Part shown: one piece after another, positions 5,804 through 21,100 of the stretch | Numbering within the stretch: the stretch's first letter is position 1 | How the letters are laid out: every line of letters begins with the position of its first letter | Virus record (IMG/VR): IMGVR_UViG_3300049893_000099 | Coordinates: 1-30,555 of that record | Direction: 5' to 3' (one strand) | DNA length: 30,555 bases | Source of the DNA: a virus | Notes under the pieces: generated by a model | Told to the model about the DNA's origin: nothing | The model's database searches: none | The model's input: the letters and a program-made list of their open reading frames with translations, nothing else | Made by a program: the position numbers and the translations under genes

Positions 5804-6367
5804 ATGAATAGTGAACAAGTGTTATCGATGCTCAAGACAAATGTCAACGAGCATACAGAGAAGAAGAATGGGCTTACATATCTTTCATGGGCGTGGGCAT
5901 GGGCAGAGGCACTAAAAGCCGATCCTGAAGCCACATACAAAATAGAGATGTTTGAAGGAAAGCCCTTTGTAGACATCAACGGCACAGCAATGGTGTTTGT
6001 AACAGTCACCATGTTTGGCAAACCAATGACTTGCCAATTGCCCGTGATGGACTACCGCAACAAAGCAATCCCCAATCCAGACGCATTTGCAGTCAATACT
6101 GCCATCATGCGTTGTATGACCAAGGCTTTGTCCTTGCATGGTCTTGGGCTATATATCTACGCTGGTGAAGACTTACCTGAAGGCGAAGATGAGTCATCTG
6201 TGGACGAAGGCATGATGTTGGACTACTTGTCTGCGATTGAAGTTACTTCATCCCTTGATCAACTTAAAGACATCTACATCGAAGCGTTTGCCGCTTGCCA
6301 AGGCAACAAAGCATGGCAGACAAAGATGATTGCCGCCAAGGACGCTAAAAAGAAGGAGTTGAAATGA
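5804..6367 (+). CDS. Sak3-type (DUF1071) single-strand annealing protein
   Basis: The 187-residue product carries the DUF1071 signature near the N-terminus (LTYLSWAWAWAEALK, about 24-38) followed by VDINGTAMVFVTVTMFGK and the DYRNKAIPNPDAFAVNTAIM region with the basic/cysteine stretch RCMTKALSLHGLG. These match Sak3-family annealing proteins, which bind single-stranded DNA and pair complementary strands during phage recombination, as Red-beta does in lambda. The acidic segment after residue 120 and a charged tail are variable parts. It is encoded two genes ahead of a YqaJ exonuclease, its usual partner. Confidence 0.85.
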   Translation: MNSEQVLSMLKTNVNEHTEKKNGLTYLSWAWAWAEALKADPEATYKIEMFEGKPFVDINGTAMVFVTVTMFGKPMTCQLPVMDYRNKAIPNPDAFAVNTAIMRCMTKALSLHGLGLYIYAGEDLPEGEDESSVDEGMMLDYLSAIEVTSSLDQLKDIYIEAFAACQGNKAWQTKMIAAKDAKKKELK

Positions 6368-6552
6368 AGAACATTCCAGCCTTCCCAAACAACTTCACCA
6401 TTGAGAAGTATCAAGGGTTAACAATTCGTGATTACTTTGCCGCCAAAGCACTACAAGGCTTATTGGCATCAGAAGTCAACGATTCAATGCAAGAGTTCAT
6501 TTCTCGTTCTTACAAGATTGCCGATGCAATGATGGAAGAGAGGTTGAAATGA
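6364..6552 (+). CDS. small conserved phage protein (LTIRDYFAAKAL type)
   Basis: A 62-residue protein containing GLTIRDYFAAKALQGLLA and a C-terminal helix YKIADAMMEERLK. This small protein is widespread in phages and prophages beside recombination genes, always without a proven function. It is joined to both neighbours by ATGA overlaps, so it is made together with the annealing protein and the exonuclease and may act with them. Confidence 0.7.
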   Translation: MKNIPAFPNNFTIEKYQGLTIRDYFAAKALQGLLASEVNDSMQEFISRSYKIADAMMEERLK

Positions 6553-7172
6553 GTGAAGAGATTATTCAAGGTAGTGAAGAATGGCATCGCCAAAGAATCG
6601 GAAAGGCTACGGCATCACGAATATCAGACATCGTTGCCAAAACAAAGTCAGGTTATTCAACAAGTCGTGCTAACTATATGGCTCAACTGGTAGTCGAGCG
6701 CATGACAAACCAAGTGGCTGAGTCCTACACCAATTCGGCAATGGAATGGGGAACAGAGAACGAACCCTTTGCTAGAGGCGCATACGAAACCAAGATGAAC
6801 CTATTGGTGACAGAAGTAGGTGCTATTGACCATCCAAGCATTGCAATGTCTGCCGCTAGTCCTGACGGGCTGATAGGCGATGATGGATGCTTAGAGATCA
6901 AATGCCCAAATACGGCTACTCACATAGACACATTATTGGGTGGCGAGATAGCAAAGAAATATTACGATCAAATGCAATGGCAGATGGCTTGCACAGGTCG
7001 TAGTTGGTGCGATTTCGTGAGTTTTGACCCACGGATGCCAGAGGGACTTCAATTGTTCATCAAGCGGATACCCAGAGATGACAAGTATCTTGCTGAACTA
7101 GAAGGAGAGGTCATTCAGTTCTTAGCGGAAGTGGATGATAAAGTTAATAAGTTAAATGATTTGAAAGGTTAA
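6549..7172 (+). CDS. YqaJ-type viral recombinase (exonuclease)
   Basis: This 207-residue protein belongs to the YqaJ / lambda exonuclease group. It opens with QGSEEWHRQRIGKATAS, continues with MEWGTENEPFARGAYE (about 65-80), and has the PD-(D/E)XK active site with Asp106 in SPDG, Glu116 and Lys118 in LEIKCP. The following QMQWQMACTGR (about 141-151) is the conserved glutamine helix. The enzyme digests one strand of duplex ends to expose single strands for the Sak3 protein encoded just upstream. Size and motif spacing are normal for the family, so it should be active. Confidence 0.9.
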   Translation: MSEEIIQGSEEWHRQRIGKATASRISDIVAKTKSGYSTSRANYMAQLVVERMTNQVAESYTNSAMEWGTENEPFARGAYETKMNLLVTEVGAIDHPSIAMSAASPDGLIGDDGCLEIKCPNTATHIDTLLGGEIAKKYYDQMQWQMACTGRSWCDFVSFDPRMPEGLQLFIKRIPRDDKYLAELEGEVIQFLAEVDDKVNKLNDLKG

Positions 7173-7173
7173 T

Positions 7174-7410
7174 ATGGATAAACGTGACAATAGTGGTGTG
7201 CTTTTTGCCAATGACAAAAAAGACAATGATCGTGCGCCCAATTACAAGGGAAATATCATGGTAGAAGGCACAGAATATTGGCTGTCGGCATGGGTTAAGG
7301 AAGGCAAAAACGGCAAATTCCTTGGTTTGGCAGTCTCTCCGAAAGATGCACAACCACCAGCAAGCAAACCAGTTCCAAAGAACTTAGAAGAGAGCGATTT
7401 TCCTTTTTGA
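7174..7410 (+). CDS. small SSB-like / DUF736-like protein with acidic C-terminal tip
   Basis: The 78-residue protein has an OB-fold-like strand pattern: NSGVLFANDKKDNDRAPNYK, GNIMVEGTEYWLSAWVKEG, then KFLGLAVSPKD. It ends, after a flexible proline-rich linker, in EESDFPF. Bacterial single-strand binding proteins end in a similar acidic tip with a terminal Pro-Phe that recruits partner proteins. Together with an annealing protein and an exonuclease upstream, this points to a compact phage SSB that coats DNA and docks recombination or replication factors. It is about half the size of E. coli SSB. Assignment rests on pattern recognition, not on a search. Confidence 0.65.
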   Translation: MDKRDNSGVLFANDKKDNDRAPNYKGNIMVEGTEYWLSAWVKEGKNGKFLGLAVSPKDAQPPASKPVPKNLEESDFPF

Positions 7411-7620
7411 TGGGGGTTTCATTTGCATCTTGTATATGTGTCAGTACAGTCTCCCCCATGAAAGACTAAGGGCTGTACTACGCTATTGAAAGGCAACCGC
7501 AGTCTTAATATACTAAGGCGGTGACAGTCGGAGAGACGACACAGAACAACGGGGGGAAAGCGGATGCGTCACAACAGGTTTGGACTCCCAAATGGCGTGT
7601 AGCGAGTACTCCCACCCTTT
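7410..7620 (+). ncRNA. candidate structured RNA or 5' leader element
   Basis: This 210-base gap is the only long non-coding stretch in the rightward operon and is full of complementary segments. A long-range stem pairs 7475-7484 with 7601-7609 (nine pairs with A7480 bulged). Inside lie a hairpin 7497-7500/7518-7521 continued by 7504-7507/7514-7517, a stem 7522-7525/7568-7571, a hairpin 7527-7530/7537-7540 and a hairpin 7579-7583/7588-7592. Upstream, ATGGGGG (7410-7416) can pair with 7453-7459 and AGTACAG (7443-7449) with 7473-7479, which cross like a pseudoknot or compete. The element ends 3 bases before a gene without a Shine-Dalgarno sequence. A weak promoter-like TTGATG-18-TGTATA occurs at 7407-7436. 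No known RNA class was recognised; an origin is an alternative. Confidence 0.45.
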
Positions 7621-7623
7621 AAT

Positions 7624-8133
7624 ATGCGTGATAAATACAACCAAGAATACATCGAAGTTCCGCTTTCTGAGACAGAAATCATGGTTTGTAACTACATTGG
7701 AAAGTTACGAAACCATGTAACGAGCCAACACGCAAACGACAGAAAGCAAGATCAATCCCTTGATGGAGTGCAAATATCCATAAATGGGGTGATTACAGAG
7801 TATGCGGTAGCCAAGTTTCTCCAATTGCCGTTTGACCTAAATTGCAATTACAGAAAATTTGGGGCTGACCTAGTTACAAGAAAAGGCAAGACAATTGATG
7901 TTAAATGCACCAGTAAGGTAGGTGGAAACCTAAATGCCGTTGTTTGGTCAGGAAAGAAACCAGTTGATGCTTTTGTTTTGACTGAAATACACAACACTTG
8001 TGTTCGCATAATTGGATGGATAAATAGCAAGGATTTCCTGATTGAAGAAAACTTGTTTGATGTAGGCAATGGGGAGTATTATTCAGTTAGACAGTCCGAA
8101 TTGATACCTTTTGAAAGGAATTACCATGTCTGA
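7624..8133 (+). CDS. PD-(D/E)XK nuclease-like protein
   Basis: The 169-residue product looks like a restriction-endonuclease-fold protein. A helix carrying a glutamate (GVITEYAVAKFLQL, about 58-71) precedes GADLVTRKGKTIDVKCTS (about 81-98), where Asp and DVK fit the D-(n)-(D/E)xK active site, followed by strands (VDAFVLTEIHNTCVRIIGWI) as in this fold. The first conserved-looking segment is IEVPLSETE, which supports the ATG at 7624, yet no Shine-Dalgarno sequence precedes it; the sequence is instead the 3' end of the structured element. It may process recombination intermediates or host DNA. Other nuclease-fold proteins without activity are possible. Confidence 0.6.
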   Translation: MRDKYNQEYIEVPLSETEIMVCNYIGKLRNHVTSQHANDRKQDQSLDGVQISINGVITEYAVAKFLQLPFDLNCNYRKFGADLVTRKGKTIDVKCTSKVGGNLNAVVWSGKKPVDAFVLTEIHNTCVRIIGWINSKDFLIEENLFDVGNGEYYSVRQSELIPFERNYHV

Positions 8134-8236
8134 AGTCCTAATCTTTGTAGCAGGAATGATTGCTCCTGCCTTCCTAAGTGCCATATTTACCCTCTTCAAG
8201 TCCTTGGAAGAGGTAATCAAGGATAGGGTGAAATAA
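8126..8236 (+). CDS. 36-residue membrane protein
   Basis: An ATG at 8126 with AAGGA 6 bases upstream opens a 36-codon frame overlapping the end of the nuclease gene by 8 bases. Residues 4-24 (VLIFVAGMIAPAFLSAIFTLF) form a single transmembrane helix, followed by a charged cytoplasmic-type tail (EEVIKDRVK). The good ribosome site and the second small membrane ORF right after it support expression. Function is unknown; it could be a regulator of lysis or an inner membrane effector. Confidence 0.5.
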   Translation: MSEVLIFVAGMIAPAFLSAIFTLFKSLEEVIKDRVK

Positions 8237-8238
8237 GC

Positions 8239-8337
8239 ATGATAGAGAGCATCCTAACCCTGTTTGCTCTTCTATTCCTTGGCTTTGTAGTAGGAATAGG
8301 GATAATCCTTGCTATCCTCTACATGACTAGTGACTAG
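8239..8337 (+). CDS. 32-residue membrane protein
   Basis: A 32-codon frame begins two bases after the previous stop. Almost the whole product is one hydrophobic helix (ILTLFALLFLGFVVGIGIIL). It ends at 8337, overlapping by four bases the end of the endolysin gene on the other strand, so the two operons converge here with no room for a separate terminator. The Shine-Dalgarno match (AGGG, 10 bases away) is weak. The pairing with the preceding 36-residue protein suggests a two-component membrane function, but this is inference. Confidence 0.4.
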   Translation: MIESILTLFALLFLGFVVGIGIILAILYMTSD

Positions 8338-20532: not shown

Positions 20533-20732
20533 AACAGTACCTGTTCCTTACGGGGTCTTCCCATAGGTTTTCTAAGAGTAATTGTGTGCCTTGTTCCATC
20601 GTCTTTAACATCTTCCACCACAATAGAGTCATCAACATACTCATATTCGGGATGACGTTTCATCTCATCAATGTCGTGTTGCGCTGAGAATTGAATCACA
20701 GTTCCGCTACGCTTACATTTGAACAAAGCCAT
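20529..20732 (-). CDS. small hypothetical protein
   Basis: A 67-residue protein starting MALFKCKRSGTVIQFSAQHD, then MKRHPEYEYVDDS, ending in a basic GRPRKEQ motif like an AT-hook core (GRPRK). It is a small conserved-looking component of the late operon just after the second terminator. The AT-hook-like end hints at DNA binding, but a single such motif is weak evidence. Confidence 0.6.
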   Translation of the reverse strand: MALFKCKRSGTVIQFSAQHDIDEMKRHPEYEYVDDSIVVEDVKDDGTRHTITLRKPMGRPRKEQVLL

Positions 20733-20750
20733 AGGTATTCCTTAATAGAA

Positions 20751-20776: not shown

Positions 20777-21100
20777 TTAGACCATGCGAACTACAACGAG
20801 TCGCAATGTGGTTGACGCTAAGTCAACAGTAGCAGTAGATTCATTCTGAATACGGAATTTGACGGTATTAGCGGCAGAGACATACCCTGTCACAGTCAAA
20901 CCAACCAAATCCACACCCAAAGATGCACCAATAACCATGTCACCCAAGGCAACGCCTGGGATCGTTATGTCATCAGTCTCACCTGCCCCATCAACCAATG
21001 AACCTGCGTTCAGCGTTGCTGTTACAGCCCATGTATCAGAGAAAAGACCACGAAACTGGTCATTACCTCTGCGAGTCGTTACGGAAGAAGCCGTTGCCAT
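20777..21100 (-). CDS. probable head decoration protein
   Basis: The 107-residue protein is almost all strand (TWAVTATLNAGSLVDGAGET, ALGDMVIGASLGVDLVGLTV, then VDLASTTLRLVVVRMV), Ala/Val/Thr-rich and encoded immediately after the major capsid protein. Size, strand content and position fit a capsid decoration or cementing protein. TAGGAG precedes the ATG by 6-7 bases. A small fibre protein is the alternative. Confidence 0.6.
   Translation of the reverse strand: MATASSVTTRRGNDQFRGLFSDTWAVTATLNAGSLVDGAGETDDITIPGVALGDMVIGASLGVDLVGLTVTGYVSAANTVKFRIQNESTATVDLASTTLRLVVVRMV

Follow-up and report, generated by a model that had tools for sequence, protein, structure and literature searches.

The long non-coding stretch between an SSB-like gene and a nuclease gene in this virus raises the question of whether it holds a conserved RNA and, if so, what that RNA might do. 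The window, i.e. the entire virus record of 30,555 bases, encodes the SSB-like protein at 7174..7410 on the + strand (PHROG 18154, E 1.3e-14, with synteny across 80 loci) and, likewise on the + strand, a PD-(D/E)XK-like nuclease at 7624..8133 (PHROG 18407, with a marginal match to Pfam DUF5843 and a GADL...IDVK motif visible in the sequence). Genes for a Sak annealing protein and a YqaJ/RecE-like exonuclease adjoin SSB at 5804-7172 (+), and their presence beside it makes up a recombination cassette. The gap behind SSB measures 213 nt, and the preliminary description of this DNA had called it the only non-coding one above 200 bases; the two other gaps that were read are 101 nt and 164 nt long, the latter with a likely small ORF. 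The same description correctly pointed out that no Shine-Dalgarno sequence precedes the nuclease ATG at 7624, and it proposed that the gap folds into one multi-branched structure.

Folding energy gave no significance to the region: at -66.3 kcal/mol it was ordinary against shuffled sequences (-63.4 +/- 4.5 kcal/mol; z -0.63), 60 of 200 shuffles folded as well or better, and the minus strand gave a z of -0.01. The same held for element A (see below) of the window and of the related stretch L009 (z from -0.01 to -1.33 over all these tests), and it should be borne in mind that thermodynamic folding programs leave pseudoknots out of their model. Thus, of the checks suggested earlier, comparison with shuffles yielded nothing, so that the decision had to rest on relatives; here another, a search for compensatory changes, was rewarded by helices that covary. 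Searching with the nuclease protein recovered 66 phage contigs; the relatives used in this analysis are for the most part contigs from metagenomes. The entire gap of the window recurs in only two of these nuclease relatives (L001 and L002), about ten others share just its last 75 bases, two (L015 and L016) have a different 160-base element in its place, and 17 (L017-L033) have no element, their nuclease ATG overlapping SSB at its 3' end. In L001 and L002, whose identity to the window across the element is 96-98%, GTCCT stands in place of CGCTA; this breaks the stem 7475-7484/7601-7609 that had been thought to close the multi-branched structure, and we therefore rejected a single fold of that kind. 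Taken with the pattern of sharing, this difference shows the gap to be composite: 7410-7615 consists of two independent RNA elements in tandem, C (7410-7541) followed by A (7551-7613), directly 3' of the SSB stop codon. The 3' strand of the supposed closing stem is part of the separate element A. An internal stem drawn at 7522-7525/7568-7571 is not confirmed either: its 5' strand overlaps a conserved stem end and the GACA linker of C and its 3' strand lies within a covarying helix of A. Judged by the covariation set out below, RNA structure in this gap is almost certainly real and evolutionarily conserved.

Element C (7410..7541, + strand) is a pseudoknotted RNA with a GACR/GANAGA module at its 3' end. 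A pattern made from its 3' end matched 30 stretches, about 25 records having the full element behind SSB, in 13-14 distinct sequences (13 in our alignment) and followed by at least three different downstream genes. Helix Pa (7410-7416/7453-7459, ATGGGGG/CCCCCAT; +), which begins with the A of the SSB stop codon TGA at 7410, is paired in 96.7% of the alignment cells, with two-sided changes in five of its seven pairs. Helix Pb (7443-7449/7473-7479, AGTACAG/CTGTACT; +) has no unpaired cell, each of its seven pairs shows two-sided changes, and on its seven distinct strand pairs, such as AGTACAG/CTGTACT, GCTTACA/TGTAAGC and CTGCAAC/GTTGCAG, the permutation P is 0.0004. For this and the other helices, registration was by hand and the permutation tests ignore the tree; what makes the covariation case strong is how many pair types occur. 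Covariation in relatives thus upholds, to the exact coordinates, two crossing seven-base complements that had been noticed by hand in the single sequence. As Pb crosses Pa, the two make up an H-type pseudoknot. Between their strands lies a small, nearly invariant hairpin, GCAUCUUGUAUAUGU (7425..7439, +), whose GUAUAU (7432-7437) may kiss AUAUAC at 7508-7513, as is suggested by a single compensatory change in L210. Stimulation of stop-codon read-through by the pseudoknot was set aside as an idea, since by eye the stop codons differ and the read-through frames are not conserved.

Further downstream, stem Pc (7496-7500/7518-7522, ACCGC/GCGGT; +) becomes ACCAC/GTGGT in relatives. It corresponds to the outer part of a longer stem first placed at 7497-7507/7514-7521; the inner CTTA/TAAG part of the latter is not conserved. 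The module itself follows at 7523..7541 (+), with GACA at 7523-7526, a hairpin of GTCG/CGAC (7527-7530/7537-7540) around the loop GAGAGA, and A at 7541. This hairpin, which also figured in the preliminary description, is borne out by relatives with a complete four-pair stem. Defining the module as GACR, a four-pair stem NNNG/CNNN with the loop GANAGA, and then A, we find 7523-7541 to be the sole + strand match in the window. The complete four-pair stem was present in 161 of 162 GACR/GANAGA core matches in phage loci, which overlap in part, and the third pair of the stem, left free in a broader search pattern, may be C-G, G-C, A-U or U-A. Across the module lineages, a stem at the position of Pc, directly before GACR, has moderate support (P 0.003). 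A crossing helix that pairs upstream sequence with the loop of this stem reaches P 0.0475, which does not establish it, and hence we do not claim it as a rule in all lineages.

The 3' end of element C, UGACA-GUCG-GAGAGA-CGAC-A, recurs with unrelated 5' parts in L187, L189, L190 and L203; two Synechococcus phages, DSL-LC07 and S-SRP01, have it in the leader of their capsid gene. The module was found in more than 100 phage contigs and, by a generalised pattern, in at least 120 IMG/VR stretches; in Vibrio phages it precedes terS and has a covarying stem. A loose pattern run against 398 bacterial genomes gave 61 chromosomal matches where the reversed control gave 55 (hand count), and as this is chance level the module looks phage-borne. 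A match in a Streptomyces phage is antisense inside a gene and was taken as chance. Most instances of the module are found 50-95 nt before the gene for the T7-type capsid protein in T7-like cyanophages, and others about 13-40 nt before another gene. These capsid leaders include those of S-CBP1, S-RIP2, S-B28, 9515-10a, NATL2A-133, P-SSP10 and uncultured Mediterranean phages, as well as that of P-SSP7, where the module is upstream of the major capsid gene (position 5725 of L376, equivalent to 20724 of NC_006882.2, in which it spans 20724-20742 and the capsid gene starts at 20822). In about 40 of the leaders a tRNA gene or a minihelix of acceptor and T-arm precedes the module, and the acceptor stems of the minihelices vary between phages yet pair (GCTAAG/CTTAGC, GAGTA/TACTC, ACTGAA/TTCAGT and AGGTAAG/CTTACCT). 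In 63 of 128 instances a hairpin with the loop CACCUCA..GU.GGA takes the place of the tRNA or minihelix. A tRNA or truncated tRNA-like structure sits directly before the module in P-SSP7 (L376, NC_006882.2 about 20600-20742) and in the leaders L235-L348, and in L243 and L274 the module is located between tRNA genes.

Element A (7551..7613, +), the exact core of which is present in 33 IMG/VR stretches, is built of helix P1 (7551-7555/7609-7613, +; two-sided changes in three of four tested pairs), helix P2 (7566-7571/7593-7598, +; two-sided changes in all five pairs) and helix P3 (7579-7583/7588-7592, +), the last of these being a hairpin that had been paired by hand before and is confirmed by relatives. 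All cells of P1 and P2 are paired, none of 5000 permutations was as good, and P1 occurs as GGGG/CCCC, GAGG/CCTC, GGGC/GCCC, TAGG/CCTA, AGGC/GCCT and others. Between P1 and P2, GAA (7556-7558) faces AGTA (7605-7608; both +) in a loop-E-like motif; GAA with AGUA is what we take to be the signature of the loop-E (bulged-G) motif. Short forms of the element read GGG-GAA-AGC-GUAA-GU..AGUA-CCC, with a GNRA-type loop. A minimal version of about 25 nt, with a loop-E-like hairpin and a GUAA loop, stands directly behind SSB in L105, L107, L108, L110 and L111, and likewise in L167-L169, L171, L172, L175 and L176. Three matches to the first half of A in reference genomes all came without the remainder of the element.

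In nearly all 33 stretches A is directly 3' of the SSB stop codon, and the genes after it vary: some are the nuclease, some have a good ribosome site (aacaggag...ATG), and there are further ones. In L076 the element stands behind a different gene, HNH-like in appearance. A third element, B, of about 150 nt, is found behind the SSB stop in L015, L016, L121, L140, L142, L145, L149 and L211-L224. By eye its strands co-vary, CTGCC/GGCAG being replaced by CTGGGA/TCCCAG, GGAGGG/CCCTCC by GGTGGG/CCCACC, and GTTTACTTG/CAAGTAAAC by GTTTATTTGT/ACAAATAAAC, which suggests that B contains several crossing helices. Over the 80 SSB loci, the stop codon is followed in most by a plain hairpin, GGGGC-UACG-GCCCC, and in the others by the short or long form of A, by B, by C or by an HNH-like gene. 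The elements begin 0-18 nt after the stop codon and stay with SSB while the downstream genes vary. What the site behind SSB calls for is a structure rather than any one sequence. These observations do not fit a leader specific to the nuclease, one of the roles considered at first: the elements follow the SSB stop in dozens of contigs with varying downstream genes, and in L017-L033 the nuclease is present while the elements are not. A Shine-Dalgarno-like sequence before the nuclease ATG is missing alike from relatives with C and A, with A and with B. The end of SSB is also a hotspot for insertions. HNH-endonuclease-like genes lie at or near it in L014, L069, L119, L126, L132, L143, L156, L159 and L166, that of L014 immediately ahead of the final codons of SSB.

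None of these structures belongs to an Rfam family that we could recognize. At the gathering thresholds of Rfam 15 there was no match for the window, L009 (A), L016 (B), L190 or L225, the single match over 11 whole loci was one unrelated tRNA, and at E<=10 the elements, B among them, drew nothing but implausible matches. With covariance-model scores below the curated thresholds, identity with a known Rfam family is ruled out, and the strong covariation adds weight to the initial view that the region lies outside known RNA families. Among the open-access PMC papers listed in literature searches, none was relevant to the sequence or to an RNA in cyanophage capsid leaders. In isolated phage records A and B gave only chance-level matches, and a pattern with six free bases gave chance matches in coding sequence. 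The module and the elements thus appear to be new as an RNA family, at least with respect to Rfam 15 and the open-access literature searched. ARAGORN found no tRNA or tmRNA gene in the window. A search of 6900-8300 for intrinsic terminators, i.e. a run of T behind a G+C-rich hairpin, found none, with 1.2 expected in shuffles, which rules out a terminator, and the single promoter found, with 3.2 expected, is not better than chance.

We infer the function of the elements from their position, their interchangeability with plain hairpins and their tRNA or tRNA-like neighbors in capsid leaders. Our tentative preference, a little short of an even chance, is for an intercistronic element that acts in cis in the processing or stability of mRNA. 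In this scheme 7410-7615 would be transcribed within the recombination operon and fold into C and A directly behind the SSB stop; the fold would mark or protect an RNA end lying between a gene whose product must be abundant (SSB, or the capsid protein in cyanophages) and its neighbor, and the two halves of the message could then decay and be expressed independently. In favor of this are the covariation of Pa, Pb, P1, P2 and the module hairpin, the retention of the elements with SSB as downstream genes change, the substitution at the same site of UACG hairpins, short loop-E/GNRA hairpins or B, and the absence of a terminator in 6900-8300. The placement of the module before the capsid gene and terS, beside tRNA genes and behind covarying minihelices points the same way; as possible targets of RNase P, the tRNA or tRNA-like neighbors in capsid leaders speak for processing of the RNA at that place. 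The plain UACG hairpins at the SSB site, for their part, argue that some phages need no more than a simple barrier. However, a mere barrier leaves the strong conservation of the GACR/GANAGA core unexplained, L017-L033 manage with nothing between SSB and nuclease, and neither the second element after C nor the missing Shine-Dalgarno sequence in the window is accounted for.

The elements most likely work as a structured element between genes, which is an already known kind of mechanism. T7 RNase III sites and the lambda sib retroregulator are phage intercistronic mRNA processing signals, sib acting on the upstream gene. Like these, the present elements are structured RNAs that lie between genes within a single phage transcript, near strongly expressed ones; unlike them, they feature a pseudoknot, a loop-E motif and the conserved core GACR/GANAGA in place of a long RNase III-type double strand, and processing is for them our proposal. 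The capsid-leader module resembles tRNA punctuation and tRNA-like processing signals in that it follows tRNAs or minihelices, whereas C in the window is free of any tRNA detectable by ARAGORN and has an H-type pseudoknot as its 5' part. A conserved structured RNA directly behind a gene, in the 3' UTR, is described as highly unusual in bacteria, the L17 downstream element (RF01708) being one such case (PMC2864571); it shares its immediate position behind a gene with our elements and differs in gene, host and fold, in having an Rfam model that they do not match, and in that several unrelated folds interchange in the phages. The manA and wcaG motifs are structured leader RNAs of cyanophage genes (PMC2864571), in this case of T4-like phages and upstream of metabolic genes, and the present elements match neither in Rfam. 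Presence of the module in well-studied phages such as P-SSP7 makes its function testable with existing phage-host pairs and possibly existing RNA-seq. Our observations suggest that structured RNAs which can be exchanged for one another serve phages as punctuation beside the genes expressed most, and that the space 3' of SSB is a hotspot of such exchange, involving at least three complex RNA folds unrelated to each other.

Conservation of the GACR/GANAGA core points to a more specific role than that of a barrier, namely a bound factor or catalysis. It is conceivable, if doubtful, that the module represents an undescribed, widespread class of phage RNA, either self-cleaving or machine-recruiting, which would set the 5' ends of major messages, above all the capsid mRNA, and combine freely with tRNA, minihelix and pseudoknot 5' domains. 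A cis-regulatory switch, in which C and/or A would bind a protein (e.g. SSB, in autoregulation) or a ligand to control translation or decay of SSB or the downstream gene, has in its favor the complex pseudoknotted fold, the fixed place at the SSB stop codon and the frequent location of the module just upstream of a ribosome-binding site; it is unlikely, given that no alternative fold that would mask a ribosome site is conserved, that several unrelated folds serve the same place, and that the downstream genes (SSB neighbors, capsid, terS) are unrelated and so offer no common ligand logic.

Another reading makes the core and its adjoining stem an undescribed self-cleaving ribozyme that would cut the message and so set the 5' end of the downstream mRNA. 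The small, nearly invariant core (GACR, GGANAGAC, A) amid freely covarying stems and very different 5' domains, and its usual position 13-95 nt before a start codon, would suit this, but with no match to an Rfam ribozyme, and with A and plain hairpins, in which the core is missing, also accepted at the SSB site, we regard it as quite unlikely. Two known classes were considered separately. The hairpin ribozyme has invariant cleavage-site and loop nucleotides, N*GUC and AGAA; the resemblance of UGACAGUC to it is only suggestive, and identity is ruled out as the bases that follow GACR form a freely covarying stem (GUCG, GUGG, CUCG, GCCG). The hammerhead has a CUGANGA ... GAAA core in a three-way junction, and this core is absent by eye, as is any Rfam match. 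Hammerheads are on record in phage intergenic regions (PMC3088659), a setting that lends the ribozyme idea some precedent; the module shares with hammerheads and other self-cleaving ribozymes of phages a small conserved RNA core between genes, and differs in that it lacks the hammerhead core and an Rfam match.

Excision from the SSB transcript of a trans-acting small RNA, such as a decoy or anti-defence RNA, is improbable: C and B are compact and pseudoknotted and could be stable once processed, and the replacement of one fold by another recalls an arms race, but the region has neither a promoter above chance nor a terminator, and the same module serves as leader in capsid mRNAs. Decidedly improbable, too, is a put-like antiterminator that would bind RNA polymerase and act on transcription of the genes behind it; it would fit the stem-loop architecture, the phage-borne nature and the location in cis where a downstream segment begins, but the place behind SSB is mid-operon, no terminators were found behind the element in the tested stretch, and T7-like cyanophages transcribe their late genes with their own polymerase. 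A replication origin, as first considered, or a recombination hotspot acting at the DNA level is scarcely credible, in spite of the neighboring Sak, YqaJ and SSB genes and of HNH genes inserted at the same locus in relatives, in view of the constant sense orientation relative to genes in the contigs read, the G-U wobble pairs, the loop-E, GNRA and UACG motifs, the reuse in capsid-gene leaders and the absence from some relatives.

Two further observations concern the wider context. The module may occur repeatedly, being present twice in tandem in L292 (around 2075-2113) and twice within 400 nt in L347 (at 3744 and 4139). Elsewhere in the window, at 1638-2450 on the minus strand, there is a gene for a Mom-like DNA modification protein (PF25680).
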